NCBI GenBank assembly: GCA_030603685.1
Contig: JAUVXG010000010.1
Coordinates: 1 to 52,049, forward strand
DNA length: 52,049 bases
DNA from: Pleomorphomonas sp.
GTDB lineage: Bacteria > Pseudomonadota > Alphaproteobacteria > Rhizobiales > Pleomorphomonadaceae
Direction: 5' to 3'
The translations under genes were made by a program, and so were the position numbers. Below the pieces are notes generated by a model. That model saw nothing but the letters and a program-made list of their open reading frames with translations, searched no databases and was not told the origin of the DNA. Shown in pieces: positions 4,375-44,624 of this stretch. Numbering within the stretch: the stretch's first letter is position 1; each line of letters starts with the position of its first letter.

Positions 4375-4772
4375 GGAAGCAGCTCCTGCTGGTCATGAAG
4401 TTCTGTAAGACAAAAGCTAAATTTCCATAAACTGGATTTCTACAGTGCAAAATTGATTCAAAAGGCGTGAAATAAATTCGATAAAGAGCGGAGTTGGATA
4501 TTAATACTCAAGAGTCATGAGACTCGTTTTGCGAGTACTGAAGTTTCGCTAAACAGCTGGAAATGCGCGCAACGCTCATGAGAATCTGCGTCTCGTTGGA
4601 AGCCTGACTCGTGAGGGTTGTCGGCCCCCACCGCAGAATTTCCGAGGAAAACCGCCGTTTTAAGTATGATTACGTAAGTATTTTAGCTGATGAACAGCGG
4701 CGCCATTTTCACGTCGGCCTCGAGTGGGCGGCGCATCTGACGAGTGCCTTTCCGGCCTGTCCGTTGCCGAAC
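4375..4772. other. Non-coding gap upstream of the che operon
   Basis: About 400 bp between the STAS gene start and the end of the HD-GYP regulator gene. The first 150 bp are clearly more AT-rich than the flanks and should hold the che operon promoter, read leftward, but I see no clear -35/-10 pair. No convincing gene is visible. Confidence 0.5.
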
Positions 4773-22999: not shown

Positions 23000-23395
23000 T
23001 CACGCTTGCCAAATGCCGATCAATGAGTTCATCCAGCCGATTCTTGGAAATGGCGCTGGTTGGATTTGGGCTGGCAGAGATGGTGCACCTTTCTTCAAGC
23101 AGGGAGGTATGGTCTGCTCTGCCAGATATCCATTCACCGCCACCATGGCGTGACGCAACGCAATGCGATCGGCCACGTAGCGGTCATCTCTCTTGGCTCT
23201 GATCTCGGCGATGATCGCCTCGCTTAAATCCACCATCACATCGCTGGAGATGTGGCGCTGCCGAGCTGCCATTGATGTCAGGTAGCTTTTTGATTTTCCC
23301 AGGAACCTTTTGGAAAAATCGGCCTTCGAGCTGACAAGATCAGCAATACGAAGCTGCTCGTAAATGCCTTCCAGCAGCTTGATTTCTTTGTTCAT
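23000..23395 (-). CDS. DUF6626-like protein
   Basis: 131 residues. The first 60 residues read like a small DNA-binding domain (IYEQLRIADLVSSKADFSKRFLGKSKSYLTSMAARQRHISSDVMVDL), with a longer helical C-terminal part. I associate this pattern with the DUF6626 family of element-borne proteins that resemble repressors, but I am not certain. Its stop lies in a poorly coding region and its ATG faces the HUH-like gene across a 85-bp AT-rich gap, so the two may share a divergent promoter region. Confidence 0.55.
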   Translation of the reverse strand: MNKEIKLLEGIYEQLRIADLVSSKADFSKRFLGKSKSYLTSMAARQRHISSDVMVDLSEAIIAEIRAKRDDRYVADRIALRHAMVAVNGYLAEQTIPPCLKKGAPSLPAQIQPAPFPRIGWMNSLIGIWQA

Positions 23396-24241: not shown

Positions 24242-25510
24242 CTAAATCTCGCCTCCCTCCTCAGAGCGTTCGTTCTCGCCGGATACGTCGGCGTTTAATT
24301 TCCGCCCATGTGTTCGCAGGGCCTTGAGACCGTTTTCCACGTCACTGCCAGAGAAGACTTTGTCCAACGCCTCAACGCTTTGCCTTATTCCCCAGGGCAC
24401 CAAACTATTTTTGTCGTTCTGCGCCATATCGACCAAGCGGTTGGCCTGTAAAATCCCCGACAACTCCGCATAAACGGAGTGATTGGTGAGCAGCAGCTTG
24501 CCGAGAGTGTCGGCTGCGGGATCGGCTGGGTTGCGTCCAGGCATGAAATCTCCCGTCGTGCAACGATCACCAAGCGGGCTGGAAAAGGGAAACGGCGAGT
24601 CAGGGTGGAAATCACCGCCATGTTGTGGAAGCGTATGGGAGAGCAGCCGGAACTCGCCATCCTTCACATCCAGTCCCGTGGTGATCTGCCCGTAGCGCTG
24701 GACGATGCTGAAGCTTCGCGAACTATCGAAGCTGACGGTGATTATGTCGTTCACGTGCCGTCTCAACGCTCGTTGCAAGGCTGTGGCCAAGACCGCGAAG
24801 GAGGGACGGCTAGTTCCCAGGAAGTGTATATGTGTCACGTGGTCAAAGGTGCCTGCGTCGAGCATCTTCCGGAACTGCTTTGCCCAGAACCACATATCGA
24901 GACGTGTGTGCCCGGCGATCGCCAAGCCTTCAAGGGGATAGGGCGCGATCTGCTCGCGCCAATATTCGGCCTCCTTGTGGTCTCTTCCTTGATAGACCGA
25001 CAGAAGACGCAGACTGGAAGCGCTGCGATTGTTCTGGGCGAACTTGAGATTGTCGATGGTTCGATTGAGACACTCCGCGAAAGTGGTGACGCCACTGGCT
25101 GGGACGCTGAGGGCGCGCGTTGGCACATCAAGGATCAGACCTACGTCAAAGTAAGCTTCCTGCCATTGCAGGACTTTTGCACGAAACGAGGCTTCAGAAT
25201 ATTTGACCGCCCCGCTGATCAGGGAGAAGCCGCCGCTGTCTGCCATCGCGAACGTGTTCTGGCGGTCCCGCGTCTTGACGATGTCCGGCCGTTGATCTTC
25301 AAAGCCGAGGGCTGCCGAATAAAGAGCGTTTGGCCAATGATAGAGCTTGGACTTGGCGTTTAGGAAGTTGAAGTCGGTTGGCCGAACGCCAGATGGCAGC
25401 CGAGCTTTTGTTTGCGCGTTGGATCGCTGCGCAGCAAAGGCCGAGTAGCCGTTGCTTAGCGCTGGAAGATAAAGGGCGTAGTCGGCCCAGAGCGACGCAA
25501 AATTCGTCAT
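24242..25510 (-). CDS. tRNA-guanine transglycosylase-fold protein (DpdA-like)
   Basis: 422 residues. The motifs of the TGT superfamily come in the right order: ADSGGF at 90-95 (general acid-base Asp91), LILDVPT at 125-131 (substrate Asp128), LEGLAIAG at 193-200 in the place of GGLAVGE, HFLGTSRP at 229-236 in the place of the GVGxP strand, and VSFDSS around Asp262 in the place of the nucleophile Asp. The zinc motif CxCxxC of tRNA-type enzymes is absent; only two cysteines occur. This suggests a nucleic-acid base exchange enzyme for another substrate, such as DNA (as DpdA), rather than housekeeping queuosine synthesis. None of the preQ0 synthesis genes or other dpd genes are in the window. It follows a 587-residue unknown gene by 64 bp and probably shares its transcript. 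Confidence 0.75.
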   Translation of the reverse strand: MTNFASLWADYALYLPALSNGYSAFAAQRSNAQTKARLPSGVRPTDFNFLNAKSKLYHWPNALYSAALGFEDQRPDIVKTRDRQNTFAMADSGGFSLISGAVKYSEASFRAKVLQWQEAYFDVGLILDVPTRALSVPASGVTTFAECLNRTIDNLKFAQNNRSASSLRLLSVYQGRDHKEAEYWREQIAPYPLEGLAIAGHTRLDMWFWAKQFRKMLDAGTFDHVTHIHFLGTSRPSFAVLATALQRALRRHVNDIITVSFDSSRSFSIVQRYGQITTGLDVKDGEFRLLSHTLPQHGGDFHPDSPFPFSSPLGDRCTTGDFMPGRNPADPAADTLGKLLLTNHSVYAELSGILQANRLVDMAQNDKNSLVPWGIRQSVEALDKVFSGSDVENGLKALRTHGRKLNADVSGENERSEEGGEI

Positions 25511-25515
25511 GGAGC

Positions 25516-25532
25516 TTTCCTCTTTGAGGAAA
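25516..25532 (-). promoter_or_regulatory. Inverted repeat over the ribosome-binding site of the TGT-like gene
   Basis: TTTCCTC, three bases, GAGGAAA: a 7-bp hairpin directly before the ATG at 25510. Read on the minus strand the GAGGAAA arm is the ribosome-binding site, so the hairpin could limit translation. A related palindrome (arms TTTTCCTCA/TGAGGAAAA) lies at 27841-27861 upstream of the operon. Confidence 0.5.
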
Positions 25533-25574
25533 AATAGGGGGTGGCCGGGAAACTGGGTTCCCGGCCTGTCACGG

Positions 25575-27338
25575 TCAGACGTTCGGCAACTCGTCGTTGT
25601 TCGCCTGCGTGGAGTCGCTCGGCAGCTCGCTGTCTGGCGACTCGTCGTTCGTCAATGGCTCGCCGATGCGAGGCCATGTCACGGGCGACATCTTCACGAT
25701 GTGGCGGTTGGACCGGTGAAGCTTGTCGGAGACCGAAGGCAGATAGACCTCGTAACCGGCAAGCGCCGTCGTGAACCGGAACACGACCATGTGCTCATCC
25801 ATGGAAGCGCTGATCGCCCCCTTGAGTGGAAGCCGGGAGAGCGCTTCCGCGACGGCGATGAAGTCGTCAGGATGAACATCCACGGTGCCGCTTGCATGAG
25901 CAGACGGCGCAGGCACGGACACAATCTTCTTGTGACACGCGATTGCCAAGCTCTGCGCTGCCAGTGTCAACGCCACCGGAGCGTCGTCCTTGCGGAACTT
26001 CTTCACCGTCGGAACGACCTCCACCATCTTGTCGATGAGGCCAAACAGACCACCTGTCTGGGTGGTTGGCTTGAACGAGTCGCTGATCATGGTCGGAAAG
26101 TTGTTGGTCCGCGATCTCACCTGTTCGATGAGCATGCCGACATCCACGCCCCTGTCTTGCTCGTCCTTCGCCACCGATGTCGTCAGCTTGATCCGCTTGA
26201 TGCCTTCCGTGTCGCCGGGACCGGTGACCTCGAAGTCGAACGCATCGCGCCGCTTCCGGTCCTTGAGGTTGGCAGCGGCTCGACGCCGACCATAGGTCTG
26301 AAAACGGGCATGCCCTTGGATCGGCTCGTCCAGTAACTCGACCGAAGGTGCGACCTTGATGATGACGCTGCTCGGATTGAGGATCGGCGAGATCGTCATC
26401 TTCCCATCGGGGTGGAACACGAACTGGCGTGATGCCAGGCGACGAGGCGACGCCGAGTCATTCGGGTCGTCGTCGTGGTTGACCAGGACGCTGGTTTTCT
26501 CCTCGACCAGCGCCTCACCAACTTCAAAGAGCTCGGCAAGAAACTTGATACGATCGTCAGCCAGATCCAGCGCGGAATAGACGAACGGCAAGGCTTCTGA
26601 AGGCAAATCAAGGGCCCGCGCGATCTTGGGCTCTCCGACGTCTGATTGGACCGCGAGGGCGAAGATAAGACTGCCGCTTCCTCCTCCCAGTGCCCCTCCG
26701 AGCAGAGATTTCGCCATCGCTGACTGCCGAATGGTGTGGGCGTCGGATGACAGAGGAATGACCTCGGCGTGCTCGGAACTGTCCGCAGAAGAGTCCAGCG
26801 CCATCTTGTTGACGCCACCTTCGCTCTCGATGATGTCCATCAACATCGTCACCCCAGCACTGTCGTAGGTGATGTCGATTCCACCATCCTGAGCCGGCAT
26901 CGCCTTGCGGGCCAGTTCAAGCAACCGTGCCCCTGCCGAGGCATAGCGGTTGAGTGCCTTCGAGTCGTCGGCCTTCTTCTTCTTGTCGGCGTTCGCTACG
27001 TCTAGCTTGAGATGGTAAGCGAATGCTGCCGCGAGAGGATTTTTGGAGCGAGGGATACCTAGCCCGGCGTTTTTGAGTTCGCCTTCAAAGAAGCCTGCCG
27101 GAGCGAGCTGTGCGTCCATGACCACCATGGCGACAAGCTGGCGAACGGCAACTCGCTTCTTCGCTGCGAAGTCTGTAGCTGTGCCGGCGCATTCCTGAGT
27201 CTTTTGACGCCAGGTAATGGCTTGACTCGCGTTCAGGCTTTTGCCGAACGCAGGAACGTCCTTGAACGCGAGTCCAAGGTCGTTCGGGGCTGGGCTGGTC
27301 TCGGTTGGTGCCAAATTGGCGGAGACGGCTATTACCAT
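25575..27338 (-). CDS. Unknown 587-residue protein, first gene of the TGT-like operon
   Basis: No family recognised. A soluble protein with no signal or membrane helix. It has a Lys-rich stretch near residue 130 (ADKKKKADD), a glycine-rich stretch near 215-225 (LLGGALGGGSGS), a basic region around 340-355 (YGRRRAAANLKDRKRR), and a Ser/Glu/Asn-rich tail. The C-terminal 100 residues before the tail (HPDDFIAVAEALSRLPLKG, HMVVFRFTTALAGYEVYLP) look like alternating helix and strand, faintly like one domain of a sliding clamp, but this is weak. The ATG at 27338 is chosen because GAGGTG stands 6 bp before it; the open frame extends to 27380 through the leader RNA. It sits 64 bp upstream of the TGT-fold gene and is likely its partner. 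Confidence 0.75.
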   Translation of the reverse strand: MVIAVSANLAPTETSPAPNDLGLAFKDVPAFGKSLNASQAITWRQKTQECAGTATDFAAKKRVAVRQLVAMVVMDAQLAPAGFFEGELKNAGLGIPRSKNPLAAAFAYHLKLDVANADKKKKADDSKALNRYASAGARLLELARKAMPAQDGGIDITYDSAGVTMLMDIIESEGGVNKMALDSSADSSEHAEVIPLSSDAHTIRQSAMAKSLLGGALGGGSGSLIFALAVQSDVGEPKIARALDLPSEALPFVYSALDLADDRIKFLAELFEVGEALVEEKTSVLVNHDDDPNDSASPRRLASRQFVFHPDGKMTISPILNPSSVIIKVAPSVELLDEPIQGHARFQTYGRRRAAANLKDRKRRDAFDFEVTGPGDTEGIKRIKLTTSVAKDEQDRGVDVGMLIEQVRSRTNNFPTMISDSFKPTTQTGGLFGLIDKMVEVVPTVKKFRKDDAPVALTLAAQSLAIACHKKIVSVPAPSAHASGTVDVHPDDFIAVAEALSRLPLKGAISASMDEHMVVFRFTTALAGYEVYLPSVSDKLHRSNRHIVKMSPVTWPRIGEPLTNDESPDSELPSDSTQANNDELPNV

Positions 27339-27344
27339 AACATA

Positions 27345-27750
27345 CACCTCATACTGAGGTGAGCCGCGCCGTTCTTTCACTCAGGCATAGCGGCTCACCC
27401 CCCGGAATGACCGGGTGTTGGTGAGCCGTATTGCAGAACGGTCTCGTGTTGGTGCCGCCTCCAGACTGCCAGTTCCTACCGTTGCCGATAGCCCCGCCGG
27501 GACGAATTCCAGTTAGCTGACGTTCAGCTATGAAACCCGTTCTTGTCGAACCAGACCCTCTCGGGTCGCACCTGCCTGCACTACGAGGGTGGCCGAAGCC
27601 CAGTCTCTTTACAGCGTCCGCAAAGGAACCCCGATGGAACTCCGCCAAGGCGAAGCTTCAACACGTAGCGATGTTTCGGGGCTAGCCGCCCCTTTTCACT
27701 GGTCGCTCCCGAAGGAGGCAACCCCTCGACGGCGTTGGTCGAGGCTACAA
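27345..27750 (-). ncRNA. Structured leader RNA with alternative helices before the 587-residue protein gene
   Basis: Read on the minus strand, this 400-nt segment contains a series of perfect hairpins: 27724-27744 (CCTCGAC arms), 27706-27717 (CTCC-UUCG-GGAG), 27678-27692 (GGGGC arms), 27591-27600 (GGC-UUCG-GCC), 27554-27567 (GACCC-GAGA-GGGTC) and 27514-27530 (TAGCTGA arms). UUCG and GNRA tetraloops are typical of real structured RNA. Near the 3' end three 9-nt segments alternate: A CGGCTCACC (27420-27428), B GGTGAGCCG (27391-27399), C CGGCTCACC (27358-27366). A can pair with B, or B with C. The end of C overlaps a 7-bp hairpin (27345-27361) that holds the ribosome-binding site GAGGTG. This is the layout of a translational riboswitch or attenuator. 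I cannot match it to a known RNA class. Confidence 0.7.
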
Positions 27751-27757
27751 TACTGCA

Positions 27758-27787
27758 AATTTACCAAATGAACTTCAGGAGAGTCAA
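27758..27787 (-). promoter_or_regulatory. Promoter for the structured RNA and the TGT-like operon
   Basis: On the minus strand: -35 TTGACT (27787-27782), 18-bp spacer, -10 TAAATT (27763-27758). A transcript would start near 27750, exactly where the structured RNA begins, giving a leader of about 410 nt before the ATG at 27338. Confidence 0.6.
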
Positions 27788-27840
27788 TAGAGGCGATTCT
27801 ATATGGTTAATTACCTTTAGGCTTTCCTTCTTGGATTCCG

Positions 27841-27861
27841 ATTTTCCTCACTGAGGAAAAT
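27841..27861. promoter_or_regulatory. Perfect 21-bp palindrome, possible operator
   Basis: Arms ATTTTCCTCA and TGAGGAAAAT around a single C. It lies 54 bp upstream of the -35 box of the leader RNA promoter and about 80 bp downstream of the recombinase gene. No T-run follows on either strand, so an operator is more likely than a terminator. A shorter version occurs at 25516-25532. Confidence 0.55.
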
Positions 27862-27941
27862 ATATGACACCGAAAGACGCTGCTTTCTGCTGTTTCATCC
27901 ATCGTCCGGCGTGAGTTCGGGTTGTCAATACGCAGGCGCCA

Positions 27942-28520
27942 TCACAGATGCTCCACTGCCGCTCGCATCATGTCCTCGCGCACGTCGATGTACCGTTGCG
28001 TCGTGGTCATGTGTTTATGGCCGGCCAAGGTCATAATGACCTTCGTGCCGACGCCCGAGTTTGCCAGTTTGGTTATGAACCAGCGTCGGCCGCTGTGAGA
28101 GGTCGCCCCATCCAAGCCGGCAGAAGTGTAGAGCCGGTTCATCAACTGGCAGAGCGTATTGGGCGAGAATGCCGTGTGCTTCTGCGTCATCAACAATGGG
28201 TCGCCTAGTTTGCGTCCACGACGACTATCATCCACCGAACGGCGAAACCGTTCGATCTCATGTCGCAGGCGGTCGTTCAGGAAGACCACTCTTTCATAAC
28301 CACCTTTGGCAATCGAGGCACGGACGACCAAGCGCTCTCGGATGGTACCCTCTGCTTCCAGCACATCGCCGACTGATAGGCCAGCGATCTCACCGACGCG
28401 AAGCCCGGCGAGATGCGACAGCATGAAAGCTAGCCGATTGCGCTCGGCGTGCTTGGTCTGAGCCACAACGGCCAGCAGCCTCTTGAGTTCGGGTTCGGTA
28501 AGCACGCGGGCTTGGCGCAT
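27942..28520 (-). CDS. Short tyrosine recombinase (catalytic domain only)
   Basis: 192 residues made up only of the catalytic domain of the tyrosine recombinase/integrase family. The first catalytic Arg lies in HLAGLRVGEIAGL, the box II His/Arg in TSHSGRRWFITKLANSGV, the second His in LAGHKHMTTTQRYI and the nucleophile Tyr in the final QRYIDV. The N-terminal core-binding domain of Xer and phage integrases is missing; the size is that of FimB/FimE-type inversion enzymes. The TTC-free upstream region has no leftover N-terminal domain, so it does not look like a recent truncation. It may act on the element itself or on an inner cargo unit. Confidence 0.85.
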   Translation of the reverse strand: MRQARVLTEPELKRLLAVVAQTKHAERNRLAFMLSHLAGLRVGEIAGLSVGDVLEAEGTIRERLVVRASIAKGGYERVVFLNDRLRHEIERFRRSVDDSRRGRKLGDPLLMTQKHTAFSPNTLCQLMNRLYTSAGLDGATSHSGRRWFITKLANSGVGTKVIMTLAGHKHMTTTQRYIDVREDMMRAAVEHL

Positions 28521-36412: not shown

Positions 36413-36457
36413 CATCGAAGATAACAAATTTTGCATCGAATGGTGGGTTTGGCGCAC

Positions 36458-37666
36458 ATGGAGTATTTCCCGATAATTCAGGCTCTCTGCCGGGCAGCCA
36501 TGGCTGAGCCGTCTCCGGCACTGCGCAAACAGATCGAGCGATTGCGTGATGCCTTGAGTAAAGACGGCGAGGAAAAGCAGGCAGCTTCGCTTGCCGGAAT
36601 CTTGGCTGCTGCAGAGCGTCTGAAGGAGATGGCGCCCAGTCGGATCGAGCGCTCGCGAGCAATTCTTCCTGGTGAAATGCTTGGACGGAATACGCCCTTG
36701 CCGGTGGATCGCGAAACTGCTGCGCCACTCGCAGAGATTATCTTCCCAGCCGAGATAAATGCTGACGCTCCGCTGTTCAACCTAACAGTCACCCAAGCCG
36801 TTGGCACGATCATTGACGAGTGGACAAACTTTGAAGCTCTTTCGGCAGTTGACATTTCGCCGGCAAAGACGTGTTTAATCTATGGGGCGCCGGGCACTGG
36901 GAAGACGCGTCTTGCCTTCTGGATCGCTCGCCAGCTGGAATTACCGGTACTGCTCGTCAAGTTGGATGGACTGGTTTCTTCGTTCCTGGGGACAACTGCC
37001 CGAAACATTGGGAATCTCTTCACTTTTGCCAACCGCTATCGCTGCGTTCTCCTTCTCGACGAGTTTGATGCAATTGCGAAAGTGCGGGATGATCCGCAGG
37101 AAGTCGGGGAAATAAAGCGCGTCGTGAATGCGCTGCTGCAGAACTTAGATATTCGACAGAATATTGGATTCACTATCGGAATTACCAACCATCCTAAGCT
37201 TCTTGACCCAGCAGTTTGGCGCCGTTTCGAAATTCAACTTGAGATTCCAAAGCCCGATTTTACGGTAAGAAAGGCTATCGCTGAGCATTTCATGCCGCCT
37301 GTTAAGGCGCCGGATAGCCATCTGCGTTTAATTGCTTGGTTTACTGAGGGATCTACTGGGGCGGAGATTGAAGCGCTTGTCCGCACTTACAAAAAAGCGA
37401 CCACGGTCCGAGAGGAGGAGCGTCGTGGCTTACTCGATACGCTGCGGCAGTTTGCAACGCTAAACGCAGCACGCGTTCAGAGTGAACGTAGAGCACTGTT
37501 ATTTGATGAACCGGCGAGTCTGTTTAAAGCGATGCGTGATGATCCAGCGTTGGCATTCTCCATGGGCGACATCGGCGATATTGCTGGGAAGGATAAGTCT
37601 ACAATCAGCAGGTGGCTTGGTCGTCAGGCCGGTAAGTCTAGTGATGGCGAGGTGACGCATGGCTAG
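36458..37666 (+). CDS. AAA+ ATPase partner of a subtilisin-like protease
   Basis: About 402 residues. A helical N-terminal region (1-90) is followed by an AAA+ core: Walker A GAPGTGKT at 143-150, pore-loop-like LVSSFLGTTARNIG, Walker B LLLDEFDAI at 198-206, sensor-1 Asn in IGITNHP, and Arg fingers in AVWRRFE near 255. Near the C terminus MGDIGDIAGKDKSTISRWLGRQ looks like a helix-turn-helix. The start is not certain (TTG 36431, ATG 36440 or ATG 36458; none has a good ribosome-binding site). It overlaps the protease gene by 8 bp. This ATPase type is known to accompany S8 proteases in bacterial genomes, where it should control or feed the protease. Confidence 0.88.
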   Translation: MEYFPIIQALCRAAMAEPSPALRKQIERLRDALSKDGEEKQAASLAGILAAAERLKEMAPSRIERSRAILPGEMLGRNTPLPVDRETAAPLAEIIFPAEINADAPLFNLTVTQAVGTIIDEWTNFEALSAVDISPAKTCLIYGAPGTGKTRLAFWIARQLELPVLLVKLDGLVSSFLGTTARNIGNLFTFANRYRCVLLLDEFDAIAKVRDDPQEVGEIKRVVNALLQNLDIRQNIGFTIGITNHPKLLDPAVWRRFEIQLEIPKPDFTVRKAIAEHFMPPVKAPDSHLRLIAWFTEGSTGAEIEALVRTYKKATTVREEERRGLLDTLRQFATLNAARVQSERRALLFDEPASLFKAMRDDPALAFSMGDIGDIAGKDKSTISRWLGRQAGKSSDGEVTHG

Positions 37667-40157
37667 TCCCATTCAAATTGTTCTTAATCCTGAGAACTTT
37701 GAGGAGGCGCGGGAGGCTGGCGGCGGCGGCGGGCACAAGGACTTTTATGCCCTCCGGGATCGTGACTTTGAGGTGCACAAAGCTCAGCTAATGAGCCAGA
37801 TCGACACAATCTCCGGCTTGATCTCCGCTCAGTCGCAAGGTCCCATCGGCTACCTGAAGGTAATACTGAAGCGCGAAGCTTGGGCTAAAAGCCATCGTCC
37901 TGTGGCGGCCCTTTTCCGCGATGACCGCGCGCCAGTTGTTGGCGGCGGTGATCTTGGTGTCATGATTGTTGAAGGTCGGCCATCCGCACTTGCGCAGATT
38001 AAGGTGGAGATAGCGAAGGCGGAAACGCAGACTCGCATGAAGTTCGATGAGAATAGAGGGAAAGAGGTTCCTAATCCGTCCCTGCAGAAGAGTGAAGCCG
38101 GAGCGATCGAGCGGATCGAACTCTATGGTCCATCTGACAAACGTAGGTTTTCTGTTGAGGAGGCTGTTGCCTGGCTTTCAATCCCCGCAACTGGCGGGGG
38201 GTATGAGATCGAGCTGTTCGATGTGGTGCCTCCTCGATCTGAATGGGATCGCTTAGACAGTTCGCACCGGCGTCTTGTAGAGTCATTCGTCGATGGTTTT
38301 AGCCGTCTCGATTATAGCCTCTCCGTCGAGCGTCTGCCCTCTGGGAGAGATAAGCTGCCGACGCTGGCAGTTCGTCTTGATCAAGCTGCTACAGGTGCTG
38401 TCGTTCGTTTGGCAGGAGCATCGGTTAAGGAACGACGTGAACTGGCTCCCTTCGATTCAAACATCCAGCGCCACAGCCGATTGCTTGATTTCCTAGACAG
38501 GCACCCGCTGGTAAAGCGCATTGAGCTACCTGGCATTATCGTGCGGTCGGACCAACCTGCTACGGCTATCCGGATGCGCCCCGACAGCGCTGTGATGCCG
38601 GTTCGTGACAGTCGGCTCTCTCATCCGAAGCTGGGAATCATTGACGGTGGTCTGAGCCCCGCCTTGGCAGACTGGGTTATTGATCGGTGGAATGTTCTGG
38701 CCGACGAAGACATGGATCTGTCTCATGGTACCTTCATAGGCGGCCTCGCCGTGGCGGGTTCCAGCCTTAATGGAACTATTGCATGCCCTGAGGCCGATGG
38801 TGCGGATCTGGTAGATCTTGCAATCTTCCCCAATGAGAGGAAGGCGGGCGCTTTCGCATCCTACTATTCTGGAGGACTCCCGCATTTTTTTGACGAAATG
38901 GATGCCGCTGTTGCAGATGCCCGCGCGCGGCATGGCGTGCGGGTATTCAATATGAGTCTGAACGTTCTTCAGCCTGCGGCTCCCGACAGATACAGCCCAC
39001 ATGCTGTTCGTCTAGATCGTATCGCTGAGGAAAATAACGCAGTCGTATTCCTGTCGGCCGGTAACCTTCAACCTCAAGATCTTCGGCCGGAATGGCCGGT
39101 TGATGCTGCGGCAGCGCTGGCCAACTTAGCGCTCACACGTAACGATGGGCTCCTCACTCCGGCAGAGAGTGTTCGGAATGTGGCCGTGGCGGCAGTTAAT
39201 CCGCCCGATCACGCCGGATGCCTGCCATTTGCGCCAGCTCGCTTCAGTCGAAGAGGCCCGGGGCTTCGTTCCGGCGTCAAGCCCGATCTCGCTCATGTTG
39301 GCGGCGCCGGTACTCTCCACCCGACGCTGGGACATGGCTTGTTCTCCATTCTGCCAGATGGCACTGTCGCCGACGGTTGTGGGACGAGTTACGCCTCGCC
39401 GTTGGTAGCGAAAACGGCAGCTGCGCTCGATCACGCAATCGAAGGTGAGGTTTCCCGAGAAACGTTGATCGGCTTGCTGGTGCATCATGCTGAGATACCG
39501 GAGCCGCTGAAATCCAATGAGTTAAGGGCTGTCGCGCGTCACTTGGTCGGCTTCGGGGTGCCGCCGTCTGCAGAAAAGATTCTAGAGACCGGTGAGCATT
39601 CGATCACACTGGTATTCGCGTCTCGTATTCAATATGGTCAGCAGATTAATTTCAAGTTCTCTTGGCCTGCTTCACTCGTTAGCACGAGCGGCAAGTGCCG
39701 AGGAAGTGCTAAGCTTACTCTCGTAACTACACCTCCGCTAGACTCCAGATTCGGCTCCGAGTTTGTCAGAATCAATATCGATGCCGCCCTCCAGCAAGAG
39801 CAAAAAAAAGGCTGGAAGGGTCGACTAGACCCGTTGTACCTGCCTTCATCGCGTGGAGCCCATGCTGTTGAGGCTGAACGCATCGAGCATGATCTCAAAT
39901 GGAGTCCAGTGAAGGTTTTTGGGAAGACATTTCCACAGGGTGTCGGACCTTCGTCGAACTGGCGCCTGTTTATTGAATACCTAACGAGGGCTGGTGAGGT
40001 GATGCCCAAAGAGGGCGTTCCTTTCACCGCAATCCTTACAATCAGCGATCCGGAGGCAGAAAAGCCTGTCTTCAACGATATGCGCCAGAATCTTCAGGCG
40101 ATTGGTGCTCAGATCGCAGACATTCGTACCGCAGCACGAATTACACCACGCATCTAG
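37659..40157 (+). CDS. Subtilisin-like serine protease (S8 family)
   Basis: 832 residues without signal peptide or membrane helix, so cytoplasmic, which is unusual for a subtilase. About 310 N-terminal residues precede the catalytic domain: Asp329 (PKLGIIDGGL), His356 (DLSHGTFIGGLAVAG), oxyanion Asn469 (FLSAGN) and the nucleophile Ser577 (GCGTSYASPLVAKTAAAL). All triad residues are present. About 200 C-terminal residues look beta-rich. The start overlaps the ATPase gene, so the two are made together. Pairs of AAA ATPase and S8 protease are found in genomic islands; a role as a protease triggered by phage or other stress is plausible but not proven by sequence. Confidence 0.9.
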   Translation: MASPIQIVLNPENFEEAREAGGGGGHKDFYALRDRDFEVHKAQLMSQIDTISGLISAQSQGPIGYLKVILKREAWAKSHRPVAALFRDDRAPVVGGGDLGVMIVEGRPSALAQIKVEIAKAETQTRMKFDENRGKEVPNPSLQKSEAGAIERIELYGPSDKRRFSVEEAVAWLSIPATGGGYEIELFDVVPPRSEWDRLDSSHRRLVESFVDGFSRLDYSLSVERLPSGRDKLPTLAVRLDQAATGAVVRLAGASVKERRELAPFDSNIQRHSRLLDFLDRHPLVKRIELPGIIVRSDQPATAIRMRPDSAVMPVRDSRLSHPKLGIIDGGLSPALADWVIDRWNVLADEDMDLSHGTFIGGLAVAGSSLNGTIACPEADGADLVDLAIFPNERKAGAFASYYSGGLPHFFDEMDAAVADARARHGVRVFNMSLNVLQPAAPDRYSPHAVRLDRIAEENNAVVFLSAGNLQPQDLRPEWPVDAAAALANLALTRNDGLLTPAESVRNVAVAAVNPPDHAGCLPFAPARFSRRGPGLRSGVKPDLAHVGGAGTLHPTLGHGLFSILPDGTVADGCGTSYASPLVAKTAAALDHAIEGEVSRETLIGLLVHHAEIPEPLKSNELRAVARHLVGFGVPPSAEKILETGEHSITLVFASRIQYGQQINFKFSWPASLVSTSGKCRGSAKLTLVTTPPLDSRFGSEFVRINIDAALQQEQKKGWKGRLDPLYLPSSRGAHAVEAERIEHDLKWSPVKVFGKTFPQGVGPSSNWRLFIEYLTRAGEVMPKEGVPFTAILTISDPEAEKPVFNDMRQNLQAIGAQIADIRTAARITPRI

Positions 40158-40285
40158 CCGCTTTTATGGAAGAAAATCAATTGGGACCCTGAGATCTGTT
40201 ATCAGTATTTTGCTGAGTGTTGCAATTATGGGGTGATATGTATTCTGTTTCAGTTAGCGTAACTAGCAAAAAATAGGTGATAACC

Positions 40286-41653
40286 ATGGCGGAGAACTTC
40301 AATTATATCTCATTCGGAAGCTGGGGGTATATTGAAGATGGCGTTGATTTATTCACTATGGGTCGAGGGCGCATGTTTGAGTACACGCCCGTTGATATCG
40401 AGAAAAGGCTTGAAAAGCTGGATGATACATCGGTCTCTTTTTTAGAGAAGTTACCGACTTTTCTTTGTAGCGAGATCAAGACGATTGGGGATACTGCGTC
40501 CATGCTTATTAAGTATGGGCGCGTTTCCAACATTAGCGCCGGACGCAAAGAGGTTTCCGCTGCCTTTGAGACGGTGATCGACTTCGGGGTGATTGACTTC
40601 GGTGATATTGAGTCCGCACGTGCGGTGTTCGGAGCGGATAAGTTCCAGCTTTATCGCACCCACTGGGCCGTCCGTGAAGGCGATGCCCGAACCGTTCTAG
40701 GTCGGCTGGTGGAGGCAAAGCCAAATCTTGCCCAGTTGATCGCTCCGCAGGACGCTTCTGTAATCGAGGAAGAGGACGTTCAGCCGCCACCGCGCGACAA
40801 GAAGATTTTGGGTATCGCCGATAGCGTGGAGCGATTTCTTGAGTTGCTTTACAGTTCGCCAGCAAAGGATGAAACCGAGACTTTCTTTCGCGGGCACAGC
40901 GACGCAGGGTATGAACTGACCCCTTCGCTATTGCGGAAGTGGGACAATGGCGACTGGCAGTTCATGCCAAGTGAAGATCGGTTATGCAAGGAGCTCCTGA
41001 TCGCTCATTACGATGAGTTTAAAGACGATCAATATTGCTTCGATCGGCTCGTTCGGATGCAGCATTATGGATTGCCAACTCGCCTTCTTGATATATCTGG
41101 AAATCCTCTGGTTGCGCTATTCTTTGCCTGTTCTTGTAAGCCCGAGCAGCTCGGAATAGATGGCGAGGTCATTGTATTCCGGGTGGCATCGGGTCGTGTG
41201 AAATACTATGACTCAGATACTGTGAGTTGTCTTTCAAATTTATCTAATCTGACTTATTCACAGAAGAACGATATAGAACTAAGTCTTGATCAGGGCGCAT
41301 TCAACCTGACCGACGTTGCTGGCAAGCTTCTACACCATGTCAAATCAGAAAAGGGCTTTTTTGAGGGGCGAATCGTTCCTGATGACCTGAGGTCAATCAT
41401 CTGCGTAAAAGCAAAGCGCACGAACACGCGTATTAAGTCTCAGTCTGGTGCCTTCCTGCTGTTCGGTCACGAGGCTGCTCTTCCTGACGCGGGGCAAGAC
41501 GGAATTGAAATCACTCGTGTCACGATCAAAAACAAAACGCATATTCTCAACCAGCTGGACCGGATCAATATTAACGCCACTACTGTCTATCCAAGCATCG
41601 ACCAGACTGCCGTCCATCTGCGGGATCAATATCAATCGGCACCGCCGGTATGA
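40286..41653 (+). CDS. FRG-domain protein
   Basis: 455 residues. The C-terminal half is an FRG domain: FFRGHSD at about 200-206, YELTPSLLR, then RMQHYGLPTRLLDISGNPLVALFFAC at 257-282, the two signatures of the family. The N-terminal 170 residues (YISFGSWGYIEDGVDLFTMGRGRMFEY) are not recognised and may be a sensing domain. FRG domains occur mostly in proteins of defence islands and mobile elements; the enzymatic activity is not settled. The ATG at 40286 has AGGTGA six bases upstream. It follows the protease gene by 128 bp on the same strand, so it may be the third part of the cassette, with possible own promoter in the gap. Confidence 0.88.
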   Translation: MAENFNYISFGSWGYIEDGVDLFTMGRGRMFEYTPVDIEKRLEKLDDTSVSFLEKLPTFLCSEIKTIGDTASMLIKYGRVSNISAGRKEVSAAFETVIDFGVIDFGDIESARAVFGADKFQLYRTHWAVREGDARTVLGRLVEAKPNLAQLIAPQDASVIEEEDVQPPPRDKKILGIADSVERFLELLYSSPAKDETETFFRGHSDAGYELTPSLLRKWDNGDWQFMPSEDRLCKELLIAHYDEFKDDQYCFDRLVRMQHYGLPTRLLDISGNPLVALFFACSCKPEQLGIDGEVIVFRVASGRVKYYDSDTVSCLSNLSNLTYSQKNDIELSLDQGAFNLTDVAGKLLHHVKSEKGFFEGRIVPDDLRSIICVKAKRTNTRIKSQSGAFLLFGHEAALPDAGQDGIEITRVTIKNKTHILNQLDRININATTVYPSIDQTAVHLRDQYQSAPPV

Positions 41654-41756: not shown

Positions 41757-43070
41757 TCAGTCAAAGCTCCCCTCCAATTGCCTCGCCAAATCCTCCGGCA
41801 CCACGTCAGAGTAGTACATCTCGATCATCCTCACCGATGTCCGCATGTTGATCGCCAGAGTGTAGACGTCCGTGCCCTTCCTAAGCTGCCGGGTCGCATA
41901 GGTGTGCCGGAAGCTGTAAGCGGAACGAACCTGTCCGAACACGTCGGTCTTGAGCTTGGCTGCTTCCAAGAGAGCGTTGAGGCTCTTCTTGTAGGATTGG
42001 GCTCGCTCACCAGAGGCGTTGACGAACACCGGCTCGTCGTCTCTCGGCTCCCGTCCGTGGACAGTTTTGAAGGCTTCCCAGAGATTGATGAAGCTCGCGA
42101 AGGCCTCGATGTTCGGAACGAGCTGCTGCGGCTTCTTGCCTTTGCCATAGGCCAGAATGCGGATGCGCTGCTGGCTGATTGGCTTGTTCCGCTCTTCCTT
42201 GAAGCCGACGATGTGACCCCAATCGAGGTTGAAAAGCTCAGTCGGTCGCATGCCGGTTTCGAGTGCGATACCGATGAAGCAGTAGAGCACCATCCGCTCA
42301 TAGCCGACGCGGCTGACAGAGGAGACGATGTCTTTTCCGTCGGCCCCCTTCCAGGTGTTCGACAGCTTGCCTCGCTTCCGGATGTCAAGAACGTCGATCA
42401 TCCGTTGCTCTGCGACCTCCATCAGCTTGGCGACTTCGGCGTCAGTGAAGGAGGGGCGTTTGTTCCGCTCCTCGGCAACCAAGTCGATCTTGGGAATGTC
42501 CGACGCTTTGAGATAGCCCAGCCGGACAGCGTGTTTGAACACCGACCTCATGGTGACGGCTTCTCGGCGCAGCGTGCTGAGCGTTGCCTCAATATGTTGG
42601 GCGGGACGGATCACCCGGCGTCCCTTTCGCTCGTAGGCGATATGCTTCTCCTCGGCTCCAGGACCGCTCGTCCAGTAGCTTCGTCGCCACGTCATGTAGC
42701 CATGAAGCTTCGGAACGCTGATGGCTGTTATGGGGCTTCTACCGAAGAAGGGGACCATATAGCGGTCAAGCACACCTCGGTCGGCTGCGACCTTGGAGAG
42801 CTTTGACGGATTGCTTCCGGCTTCCAGTTGGGCGCTTTCGAGATACTGGCGTGCGACTTTATCGAAGGATGTCTTTCCGGGAAGCGTTCCTTGCTCGGCC
42901 TTCCAGACGGCGCGTTGATATTCGTACTCGGCGTTCCGCTTGGCTTCTTCCTCGTCGCTGGTCTTCAGGCAGATGCGTTTCTGCCCTTGTCCCGGTATGG
43001 AGAATCGAACCCAGAGGCTCGGGCTATCCACTCGGGAAAATACGACATAGGGCGGTTTGGGCTGATCCAT
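41757..43070 (-). CDS. int: Tyrosine integrase of element 1
   Basis: 437 residues. The N-terminal part (about 1-60, VVFSRVDSPSLWVRFSIPGQGQKRICLKT) is an arm-binding domain, followed by a core-binding SAM-like domain (about 65-180) and the catalytic domain with Arg in ALETGMRPTELFNLDW, YSFRHTYATRQL in box II (Tyr stands where His is common) and the nucleophile Tyr in MIEMYYSD. The ATG at 43070 begins the conserved part; a longer frame upstream has no ribosome-binding site and would run through the arm sites. The gene starts 187 bp inside the right attachment repeat, the normal place for an integrase, so it is most likely the enzyme that inserted the element at the tRNA gene. Confidence 0.9.
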   Translation of the reverse strand: MDQPKPPYVVFSRVDSPSLWVRFSIPGQGQKRICLKTSDEEEAKRNAEYEYQRAVWKAEQGTLPGKTSFDKVARQYLESAQLEAGSNPSKLSKVAADRGVLDRYMVPFFGRSPITAISVPKLHGYMTWRRSYWTSGPGAEEKHIAYERKGRRVIRPAQHIEATLSTLRREAVTMRSVFKHAVRLGYLKASDIPKIDLVAEERNKRPSFTDAEVAKLMEVAEQRMIDVLDIRKRGKLSNTWKGADGKDIVSSVSRVGYERMVLYCFIGIALETGMRPTELFNLDWGHIVGFKEERNKPISQQRIRILAYGKGKKPQQLVPNIEAFASFINLWEAFKTVHGREPRDDEPVFVNASGERAQSYKKSLNALLEAAKLKTDVFGQVRSAYSFRHTYATRQLRKGTDVYTLAINMRTSVRMIEMYYSDVVPEDLARQLEGSFD

Positions 43071-43103
43071 GGGTCGCCACCAGCGAGTTACTGTGCTGCG
43101 TCG

Positions 43104-43196
43104 GTGTGCTAGGTCCGTGCTAAAAGCACGCTGCACGCTACCGCTAACTTATTGAAAAACAATAAGCAGGACAACCTCGTGCTAACAGCGTGCTAG
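43104..43196. repeat. Putative integrase arm-type sites, right end
   Basis: GTGCTA units at 43106, 43117, 43179 and 43190, in the gap between the integrase start and the right attachment repeat. The first pair (43104-43122) repeats the left-end pair at 20714-20733 with one or two changes. Between the pairs lies an inverted repeat CTTATTG (43148-43154), AAAAA, CAATAAG (43160-43166). Confidence 0.55.
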
Positions 43197-43256
43197 CCCG
43201 TTTTGACCCGGAAATCCGCGGAATTCCTAGAAAAACATCAGCTATTTCAAGGGGTT

Positions 43257-43303
43257 AATGGTGCTGCGAGAGAGGATTGAACTCTCGACCTCTCCCTTAC
43301 CAA
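43257..43303 (-). repeat. Central attachment repeat: 3' fragment of a tRNA gene (attR of element 1 / attL of element 2)
   Basis: Identical to 20619-20665. Upstream on the minus strand, from 43304 on, the sequence is GTGGTCAGCGCCC, not the anticodon-stem partner CTCCC nor a proper D arm, so this is again only a 3' fragment (a single base-pair of the anticodon stem fails). Element 2 starts right here with its integrase gene 35 bp away. Confidence 0.8.
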
Positions 43304-43337
43304 GGGCGCTGACCACGTTTTGAAAGATCTCTATATA

Positions 43338-44624
43338 TCAACGCTTTGCGGATGCTTCCCGCTCCTCGCGTGTCACTAACGTGCCAAAATCATCGAAGGC
43401 GGCGACGGTGGCGCGGCGGGCGTCGGGCACGTCGTGGACATAGCCGAGGATGCTGCGCTCGTCGAGCCAACCGCCTTGCTCCATGGCCGCCCTGAGGTCG
43501 TGGCGCATGCGGGTGGCGAGCAGATGGCGGAACCAGTGTTGGGTCAGCTTGCGCATCAGGCGGGCATCGTCGCGGGCGGCGAGCAGCGTATCGAGCGCGG
43601 CGGCTCGGTTGCCGAGTCGGCGCTGCTGGCGCGCCTCGACGAAAGCCTTTTCGAGGATGCGAAGGCGGGCGCGGCGTTTGGCGGCGTTGAACCCCGTCTT
43701 GTTCTGGCCACCGCCGGCCTTGCCGTTGTCGGCGTAGGGCTGGCGCTTGTAGGTGAGGAAGAACGGCTGTTCGCGGTCGCGCATGTTGCCACGCCAGGCG
43801 GCATAGTCGCGCAGGATGGCCGCGGCCGAGGGGTGAAGCGCGGCGGCGACATCTTCGCCGTTCTTGGTATTGCGGAAGATGATGGTTTCCCGGCCGGGCG
43901 CCAGGATGACATCACAGATCCGCACGCCATAGAGCACCGACGACACGCGGGCGCCGGTCGACCATTCGGCCGCCATCTGGGCGCGCAAAGTGATGTGCGC
44001 CTCCTCGAGGAGAAGGGCGATCAGATCGGGGCGAAGGTCCGACACCCGGCGGCGCTTGCGGCGGCGTGGATTGCGGGCCGCCTTGTCGCGGCTGAACTCG
44101 ACGACGGCGTTCAGCTTGTGGTGTTTCACCGCATAGGACTGGAACGCAACCACGCCATTGATGAAGCGCTCGCGCGTGTCGGCGGCGTTGCCTTGCTGCC
44201 GTGTGTCGACCCAGATTTTCCATTCGGAATCGGGGATCTCGTTGAGGCGGCGAGGGCCAAACTTGGCGACGATCTCCTGGACGATGCTGATCGCCGTGGC
44301 ACCCAAGGGGCGCAGGCGCGGCAGGACCAAATAGCCCCGTGCGGCTATGGCAACGGGGTCGCCGCGCGATTTTTCGCCGCGTGCTTCGGCGGACGTGTCG
44401 CTTTCGATGAGGCGGGCTTCTTCCCAGGCTGCGTCCCAGGTGTCGGCCGTCGCGGGAAGGCCAAGACTTCGGCGCACGCGGATTGAACGGCCCCCGGCGC
44501 GAACAGTGCCGGCGACGTGCCAGTAACCGTCTCGCTCCTTGATTTCGAGGCCGCGAGCACGCCGCCCAGCTCGCTTTCCCGCTCGATCGCCGCCGCGAGT
44601 GCTTCTGTCGCTTTTACGCTCCAT
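43338..44624 (-). CDS. int: Tyrosine integrase of element 2
   Basis: 428 residues. The N terminus is very basic (about 1-24), then a beta-rich arm-binding domain (GLEIKERDGYWHVAGTVRAGGRSIRVRRSLGLPATAD). The catalytic domain has Arg in EWSTGARVSSVLYG, box II LTQHWFRHLLATRMRHDL, then GGWLDERSILGYVHD with Trp and the nucleophile Tyr. It ends 35 bp from the tRNA repeat and reads toward it. The family branch differs from that of the element 1 integrase, so the two elements are independent although they use the same site. Its first 280 bp overlap the reading frame of the upstream HTH gene. Confidence 0.9.
   Translation of the reverse strand: MERKSDRSTRGGDRAGKRAGRRARGLEIKERDGYWHVAGTVRAGGRSIRVRRSLGLPATADTWDAAWEEARLIESDTSAEARGEKSRGDPVAIAARGYLVLPRLRPLGATAISIVQEIVAKFGPRRLNEIPDSEWKIWVDTRQQGNAADTRERFINGVVAFQSYAVKHHKLNAVVEFSRDKAARNPRRRKRRRVSDLRPDLIALLLEEAHITLRAQMAAEWSTGARVSSVLYGVRICDVILAPGRETIIFRNTKNGEDVAAALHPSAAAILRDYAAWRGNMRDREQPFFLTYKRQPYADNGKAGGGQNKTGFNAAKRRARLRILEKAFVEARQQRRLGNRAAALDTLLAARDDARLMRKLTQHWFRHLLATRMRHDLRAAMEQGGWLDERSILGYVHDVPDARRATVAAFDDFGTLVTREEREASAKR

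Follow-up and report, generated by a model that had tools for sequence, protein, structure and literature searches.

Between a gene for a short tyrosine integrase and the first gene behind it, the Pleomorphomonas contig studied here carries some 400 nucleotides on the minus strand, and the question raised by this locus is whether they encode a folded RNA and whether such an RNA would govern translation of the genes downstream. The window (the whole stretch of DNA that was analysed, 52,049 nucleotides) had been described in an initial annotation as carrying at this place a riboswitch- or attenuator-like leader, in which three short segments pair in exclusive ways and thereby hide or release a ribosome-binding site. 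The structured leader RNA was delimited in this study to 27339-27752 (minus strand), that is, about 414 nt from the expected start of transcription to the base before the ATG, and five homologous leaders, that of the window included, were available for comparison. In all five loci the RNA sits between the integrase gene and the first of the genes that follow (the cargo), and in all five a hairpin over the ribosome-binding site (the SD hairpin) stands just ahead of the start codon. A promoter-like pair, TTGACT-18-TAAATT, lies on the minus strand at 27758-27787 (one found against 0.4 expected in shuffles), which is the -35/-10 pair that had been proposed ahead of the first hairpin, and both hexamers are kept in the three Pleomorphomonas leaders. 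Because of this pair, transcription is expected to start near 27752, close to the 27750 given initially as the beginning of the element.

A search with the leader across 150 genomes, its own included, recovered it in three, all of them Pleomorphomonas. Besides the window these are P. carboxyditropha, with a leader that is 90% identical, and P. koreensis (92%), in which stop codons interrupt both of the genes that follow. The central 179 nt served for a covariance model (R1), which gave three matches among 347 genomes of the order, one of them outside the genus in a genome of another family (G254; E 6e-10). When the G254 sequence was added (model R3), two matches were obtained in 136 genomes of that family, the second being G798, which belongs to the same genus as G254. 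R1 in 337 genomes of the class and R3 in 309 genomes of the phylum each recovered the own genome only, and R2 gave three matches in 60 relatives; these genome sets overlap and are samples, and runs over 40 genomes filter more strictly, so that the RNA may be missed elsewhere. No match was found by blastn of the window leader against plasmids and phages, or of the G254 leader against plasmids. Amongst viral contigs, one exact 21-letter pattern had no match, and a 15-letter pattern occurred in at least 120 stretches, 80 of which were scored together with the single match of an 18-letter pattern (best E 0.21); that single match lies inside a long open frame and does not fit the model. Over the whole RNA the window leader is 56.7% identical to that of G254 and 60.7% to that of G798, and the five leaders represent effectively two clades.

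The 5' part of the RNA is a series of local hairpins. H1 (27724-27744, minus strand as for all elements of the leader) has 7 bp and a 7-nt loop, is paired in all five leaders and differs on both sides of four of its seven pairs between the two families, while the loop CAATGCC is common to P. carboxyditropha and G798. H2 (27701-27723) carries a UUCG loop, its place being taken by a longer hairpin in G254 and G798, and H3 (GGGGC-GGCTA-GCCCC, 27678-27692) has one pair broken in P. koreensis. Further downstream lies a core closed by the long-range helix L1 (27440-27600), which holds the helices L2 and L3 and is supported by model R1. L1 joins 27600-27594 with 27446-27440 and forms 7/7 pairs in G254 and G798 and 6/7 in Pleomorphomonas; L2 joins 27572-27568 with 27455-27451, one pair being broken in P. 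koreensis; L3 joins 27553-27548 with 27475-27470. The core also contains a GNRA hairpin, (G)ACCC-GAGA-GGGT(C), at 27554-27567, the inner four base pairs and loop of which are invariant in the five leaders, and H6 (27476-27491), a covarying stem with a GCAA or GUAA loop in Pleomorphomonas.

Towards the 3' end are the three segments of the proposed switch. A (CGGCTCACC, 27420-27428) is identical in 5/5 leaders, B (GGTGAGCCG, 27391-27399) is the exact complement of A and of C, and C (CGGCTCACC, 27358-27366) has the same letters as A. The SD hairpin, CACCTC-AGTAT-GAGGTG (27345-27361), covers the ribosome-binding site GAGGTG at 27350-27345 and in the window shares four bases with C; GAGGTG ends 6 nt before the ATG at 27338. 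The letters of A, B and C, the GAGGTG hairpin with its distance to the ATG and the GAGA hairpin are thus all as first described. Of the two UUCG hairpins that had been reported, H2 was confirmed, but the second (GGC-UUCG-GCC, 27600-27591) has only three pairs, and because this stretch is an arm of a long-range helix in G254 and G798, the native RNA may not form it as a local hairpin.

Several tests indicate that these structures are not accidental. The window leader has six perfect hairpins with a stem of at least 5, in line with the "at least six" of the initial annotation, where 1000 dinucleotide shuffles average 2.1 (P 0.008). Among 1000 shuffles, none produced an A-B-C triplet made of 9-letter words and two produced one made of 8-letter words, and the fold energy of the leader (z = -3.79) was reached by none of 100 shuffles. 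With the Rfam 15 covariance models, none of 4227 families attained its gathering threshold on the whole window, and the Rfam models of group I and group II introns had no match; the Rfam check that had been suggested thus matched no family. A search of the window for tRNA and tmRNA was negative, and on three of the five leaders Rfam gave matches at chance level only, even with E allowed up to 10. Three resemblances to known RNAs were considered and set aside: a P7-like group I pairing (AGACTG with CAGTCT, by eye) is mismatched once in each of two relatives within the genus; the motif behind a tetraloop-receptor reading of the G254 sequence (by eye) is absent from Pleomorphomonas; and for a HEARO or omega RNA of IscB, the next gene is without RuvC/HNH, its 587-aa protein having no Pfam match at E<=1 and modelling as a clamp.

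Could the segment be coding, or its structure a product of chance? Stop-free stretches of up to 114 codons do occur in single leaders, but the longest open frame varies in both length and frame among the five, single-base indels are present and, as set out below, changes in the stems compensate one another; chance structure or a coding segment is hardly credible and was judged refuted at the level available. The leader RNA is apparently non-coding, and the minus strand at 27752-27339 encodes a folded RNA and not a chance pattern. Read by eye, a short frame for a leader peptide, ATGCCTGA.. before C, runs for 18 codons in P. carboxyditropha and 14 in P. koreensis and stops after 3 in the window, and since it is not conserved, peptide-based attenuation was not adopted.

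Compensating changes were sought, as the initial annotation had advised, in the homologous leaders. In a pair model of 49 pairs in eight helices, laid on a MAFFT alignment of the five leaders, 96.7% of the 245 cells are paired, and both-sided changes are found at 11 of the 49 pairs and in 21 cells; the rows of G254 and G798 are rough for H3 and H6, which are partly out of register in the alignment. The covariation score, the percentage paired and the count of both-sided cells were reached in 0/500 shuffles, the number of both-sided pairs in 2/500 and the number of further pair types in 325/500, figures that overstate certainty, as the helices were chosen after both clades had been viewed and two clades are few. 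Reliance is therefore placed on the slide control and on the size of the change: when the structure was slid along the alignment, only 34 to 49% of cells were paired and at most three were both-sided, compared with 21.

A second test assigned changes to branches, with 82 pairs from hairpins of the window sequence; its counts leave out four columns where all three Pleomorphomonas leaders differ, plus a few gapped columns. Compensated double changes numbered four on the P. carboxyditropha branch, against 0.16 expected (0/3000 random placements), and two on the P. koreensis branch (P 0.003). Broken pairs on the window, P. carboxyditropha and P. koreensis branches were 0, 2 and 2 against 1.0, 4.3 and 4.4 expected (P 0.29, 0.12 and 0.11), a deficit that is not significant on the window hairpins alone; on the consensus fold, which is itself derived from the same three sequences, they were 0, 2 and 3 against 1.7, 7.4 and 7.5 (P 0.06, 0.002 and 0.006). 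On the minimum-energy fold of the window, P. carboxyditropha has six broken pairs (12.6 expected) and P. koreensis 11 (11.2 expected), and because broken pairs compare worse there, the long-range part of that fold is regarded as unreliable. A relaxed constraint in P. koreensis, which the 11 against 11.2 might suggest, disappears by branch on the consensus fold (3 against 7.5) and counts neither for nor against the structure. Computation thus shows that the leader RNA has been conserved through compensating changes. The observations that had been named in advance as speaking against the element, namely stems lacking compensation, a known RNA of another kind or a coding segment, were all looked for and none was encountered.

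Conservation was also compared between the RNA and its neighbours. Between G254 and G798, a 217-nt core is 99.1% identical and the whole RNA 91.6% (its 5' part 75.3%, its 3' part 89.9%), compared with 84.4% for the integrase gene, 56.7% for the integrase-RNA spacer, 80.8% for the first cargo gene (67.3% at third codon positions) and 61.2% for the second. For the window compared with P. carboxyditropha, the identities are 90.8% for the RNA, 90.2 and 89.2% for the cargo genes (82.0 and 75.9% at third codon positions), 67.5% for the spacer and 81.9% for the integrase gene. In the G254/G798 clade, no part is hence as well preserved as the core; in Pleomorphomonas, the RNA and the coding genes are preserved to about the same degree. 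The 99.1% identity would also be expected had the core alone been exchanged recently.

That the core of G254 and G798 is better kept than their integrase and cargo genes would suit a trans-acting structured island RNA (RNP or catalytic) with its own transcript and read-through into the cargo, for which the SD hairpin would be incidental. The size of the RNA, its GNRA loop and its long-range helices likewise resemble large functional RNAs, and the window has a promoter-like pair at the RNA 5' end. We nevertheless consider a role in trans less likely than a riboswitch-like leader. Within 27300-27960 the minus strand has no terminator-like site other than the SD hairpin, which is maintained together with the A/B/C arrangement despite a family-specific hairpin sequence; and the only shared protein neighbour is the integrase, yet five integrase relatives have no match to the RNA beside them. 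In G254 the same scan gave no promoter-like site ahead of the RNA; its single plus-strand promoter-like site (4475-4502) falls within the RNA, together with a plus-strand terminator-like site (4555-4568), and the leader and trans-acting readings are weakened alike by the missing site.

The persistence of the 3' arrangement was examined pair by pair. All pairs of A:B form in four of the five leaders (in G798 with one G-U), and P. koreensis shows a single mismatch. For B:C the pairing is complete in three leaders (again with one G-U in G798), and P. koreensis and G254 each show a single mismatch. The SD hairpin is kept in 5/5, with one G-U in P. koreensis, and its letters differ by clade, being CACCTC/GAGGTG in Pleomorphomonas and CCTTTCAA/TTGAAAGG in G254 and G798, where C shares only two bases with it. 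In outline the A/B/C switch is conserved, and chance is unlikely to have produced it.

Folding computations, in which the energies of 400-nt folds are rough, separate the two pairings. In the window the pairing probability is 0.985 for A:B and 0.015 for B:C, and forcing B:C costs 2.5 kcal/mol and brings the unpaired probability of the single SD bases, otherwise close to 0, up to values between 0.08 and 0.70. Forcing it costs 1.1 kcal/mol in P. carboxyditropha, where the SD stays hidden, and 11.1 and 6.1 kcal/mol in G254 and G798, where the SD would be partly freed. In the decayed copy of P. koreensis, A:B and B:C differ by no more than 0.3 kcal/mol and lie 2.3-2.6 above the free fold, and forced B:C frees the first two SD bases and no others. 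B:C is less stable than A:B in four of the five leaders, and in the free fold the unpaired probability per SD base does not exceed 0.11 in four leaders and 0.42 in the remaining one. Computation thus shows that the five predicted structures have in common an "off" fold in which the SD is for the most part hidden, and B:C as the on state is supported only in part by these models. The proposed switch holds insofar as the exclusive A:B and B:C pairings can be drawn in all five leaders, but B:C is both cheap and SD-freeing in the window only. Of the wider riboswitch- or attenuator-like proposal, the conserved structured RNA with its SD hairpin and the lack of an Rfam match stand, whereas the B:C on state would be costly, or would free little of the SD, in the relatives.

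The genomic setting of the RNA is that of a small island. The short tyrosine integrase (192 aa, 27942-28520, minus strand; Pfam Phage_integrase E 3e-24) is encoded directly upstream of the RNA and adjoins it in all five loci, the integrases of G254 and G798 being 71 and 74% identical to that of the window. The integrase is followed in these two genomes by a spacer holding an inverted repeat and TTAACCATA, then by the RNA, a hairpin that contains the ribosome-binding site, and two genes. Their first cargo proteins have about 280 residues and their second ones 176 and 184; neither cargo protein of G254 has a Pfam match, and a tblastn search of the G798 stretch for the clamp-like and TGT-like proteins of the window (see below) yielded nothing. 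A domain common to the clamp family and the first G254 cargo protein was rejected at an hhalign probability of 0.1%, in a profile comparison that covered the first cargo protein only. What the RNA accompanies is therefore a place behind the integrase, not any one protein. The RNA had been taken for the leader of the 587-residue protein on a mobile operon; its place beside an integrase is borne out, but other genes follow it in G254 and G798, and from its sequence context the RNA looks like a module of integrase-linked islands, not a leader tied to that protein.

The association with the integrase is itself not fixed. Beside integrase relatives in G002, G006, G039, G250 and Azospirillum B510, no R1 or R2 match was found (a second integrase copy in G254 meets the contig end and was left out of this judgement), so that the integrase need not have the RNA beside it. 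A more distant integrase occurs in 185 plasmid records, of which only the Azospirillum one was examined for the RNA, and no integrase relatives were found in viral contigs. Since the element adjoins the integrase gene in 5/5 loci, it could be thought a folded single-stranded DNA site for the integrase, integron-like, and not an RNA element; R1 and R2, however, are unmatched beside those five relatives, one-sided changes to G-U pairs are tolerated and the element ends in an SD hairpin before a start codon, which leave this reading very improbable. An integron attC/attI site was likewise rejected, the element not being found beside those five relatives of the recombinase.

An inverted repeat, TTTTCCTC-NNN-GAGGAAAA (27842-27860), lies upstream of the promoter and is kept in the three Pleomorphomonas loci; it is possibly an operator or the end of the integrase transcript. 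A second one (25515-25533, minus strand) covers the likely ribosome-binding site of the 422-aa gene, and TTTTCCTC-NNN-GAGGAAA occurs at these two places in the window only (at most two mismatches; 0.10 matches expected). By eye, TTAACCAT (in P. koreensis, TTAGCCAT) is seen after an inverted repeat behind all five RNA-linked integrases, at 4341-4445 in L034, about 8466-8565 in L049 and 27753-27941 in the window, and this integrase-side repeat may be an operator or attachment site. Beyond the cargo, the window has a DUF6626 gene (23000-23395) and G798 a similar-looking frame (by eye; L049, 4949-5383); the gene is possibly another fixed part of the island. Elsewhere in the window, adjacent AAA ATPase and S8 subtilase genes followed by an FRG-domain gene (36431-41653) look like a defence cluster. 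Two larger tandem genes at 41757-44624 match the Phage_integrase model, the second below its cut-off, and invite comparison with mobile islands that carry several integrases, such as GInts (PMC5385486).

The first gene after the leader encodes a 587-aa protein with a predicted sliding-clamp fold (25575-27338, minus strand). It has no match in Pfam, PHROG, PADLOC or NCBIfam and no sequence match in the PDB. Its AlphaFold model is of moderate confidence (pLDDT 60.5), and the best 50 of 387 Foldseek matches (E<=0.001) are all PCNA, 9-1-1 or beta-clamp entries, with a best E of 1.5e-7, TM by target of 0.41-0.65 and rmsd of 4.6-7.2 among those 50; a sliding clamp fold is accordingly a prediction from the model. 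The clamp family was found only in Pleomorphomonas, in five of 150 genomes (the own included) with four loci in genome contigs, and no relatives were detected in viral contigs, plasmids or phages. The leaders of three other clamp-family loci (L013 in G006, L014 in G002 and L011 8765-10564, a second one in G003) had no match to the RNA. These distant leaders (L011 8655-8830, L014 3826-4030, L013 5785-5605) have no clear sequence in common with it and tend to be hairpin-rich (z -4.26, -2.40 and -1.62).

A leader bound by a protein, for instance one supplied by the host (ribosomal or RNA-binding) or one encoded by the element itself, could exert feedback control with no small-molecule ligand. The SD hairpin and the wealth of hairpins in the leader would fit such control, as would the tendency to hairpins in the unrelated leaders of the three distant clamp-family loci, but feedback by the clamp-like protein is improbable since the G798 stretch is without it. 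A host protein may still play this part, and on the whole we hold a protein-bound leader to be rather improbable.

The second gene of the operon encodes a 422-aa TGT/DpdA-like protein (24242-25510, minus strand). Foldseek ranks 1-10 are TGT structures, six of them with E<=0.001, and rank 11 is DpdA (7ui4, a DNA preQ0 insertase), with TM of at most 0.35 and rmsd of about 10-11 on a weak model (pLDDT 47). The protein reaches E 0.0064 and 15 bits with NCBIfam TIGR00432 (cut-off 350), and none of five members of its family matches the TGT models of Pfam; as modelled, it resembles TGT and DpdA. Relatives with 30% identity were found in PA5oct-like phages and in an Azospirillum plasmid, and one PA5oct phage relative sits a few genes from a QueE-like gene. 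In L026 (Azospirillum sp. B510 plasmid pAB510d, 4532-9066), a short integrase 62% identical to that of the window is one gene away from a TGT-like gene, and a 560-aa protein of pAB510d has no BLASTP similarity to the clamp-like protein. DpdA and DpdA2 put 7-deazaguanines into phage DNA, according to the available part of PMC6884629, in which PA5oct is not named. The likeness of the 422-aa protein to them comes from the Foldseek ranks of TGT and DpdA structures, and it differs in being only about 24-36% identical to outside relatives, over aligned parts.

What, then, might this RNA do? The explanation preferred here, held with about even confidence, is a cis-acting, riboswitch-like translational leader with which the cargo transcript of a small integrase-linked island would begin. 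It leads because a conserved folded domain, followed by a hairpin that hides the SD, stands ahead of different genes; a covarying folded domain was found in what, to judge from its position, is a 5' leader. A sensor is preferred to a partner-specific guide because the same RNA precedes different gene sets. If transcribed jointly with the cargo, the RNA could sense something through its folded core of about 320 nt (27752-27430), which would be the sensing or binding part, and the 3' end would serve as an expression platform. In the default off state, A:B would leave C free and the hairpin would hide the ribosome-binding site; if a small molecule or host factor put the core into another state, A:B or the SD hairpin would be disturbed, with B:C as the putative alternative, and the first cargo gene would then be translated. 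A riboswitch sensing domain of 320 nt would be very large.

A bolder proposal is tentative and on balance improbable: the RNA would belong to a hitherto undescribed class of very large sensors, carried along with a short integrase and controlling cargo that can be exchanged, defence genes perhaps among it. Were it true, one RNA core would decide when any cargo behind it is translated, and the RNA, not the cargo protein, would be the constant part of the mobile element. Such a conserved RNA control module, staying nearly unchanged while its protein cargo is replaced, would be an unusual division of labour and would offer a direct handle on the silencing or switching-on of cargo genes. This study also adds an RNA family without an Rfam match, present in two clades and with clear helices, that is linked to an unusual gene pair, the one clamp-like and the other base-transglycosylase-like.

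Such an RNA was not found in the accessible portions of the literature on structured RNAs with integrases, genomic islands, Rhizobiales, riboswitches, DpdA, sliding clamps or Pleomorphomonas, an absence that does not prove it undescribed. Some riboswitches carry SD-sequestering expression platforms, and the leader RNA is like these in its 5' leader place, in having a folded domain followed by exclusive helices, in its hidden ribosome-binding site and in the varied genes downstream; it differs in a core of about 320 nt, in having no Rfam match and in its place beside an integrase. GOLLD, ROOL and HEARO are large structured bacterial RNAs, comparable in size, in several long-range helices and in association with mobile DNA, whereas the leader RNA stays below Rfam gathering scores (in the window) and overlaps the SD of the next gene. 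The STAXI motif is a structured RNA candidate near XerDC-type integrases and other DNA-manipulating genes; in the available part of its description it is mainly a repeated pseudoknot, and by that description the leader RNA is set apart from it (PMC2864571). The genomic island SGI1 encodes a small RNA of its own, which is described as required for mobilization and is island-encoded like the leader RNA (PMC9299015).
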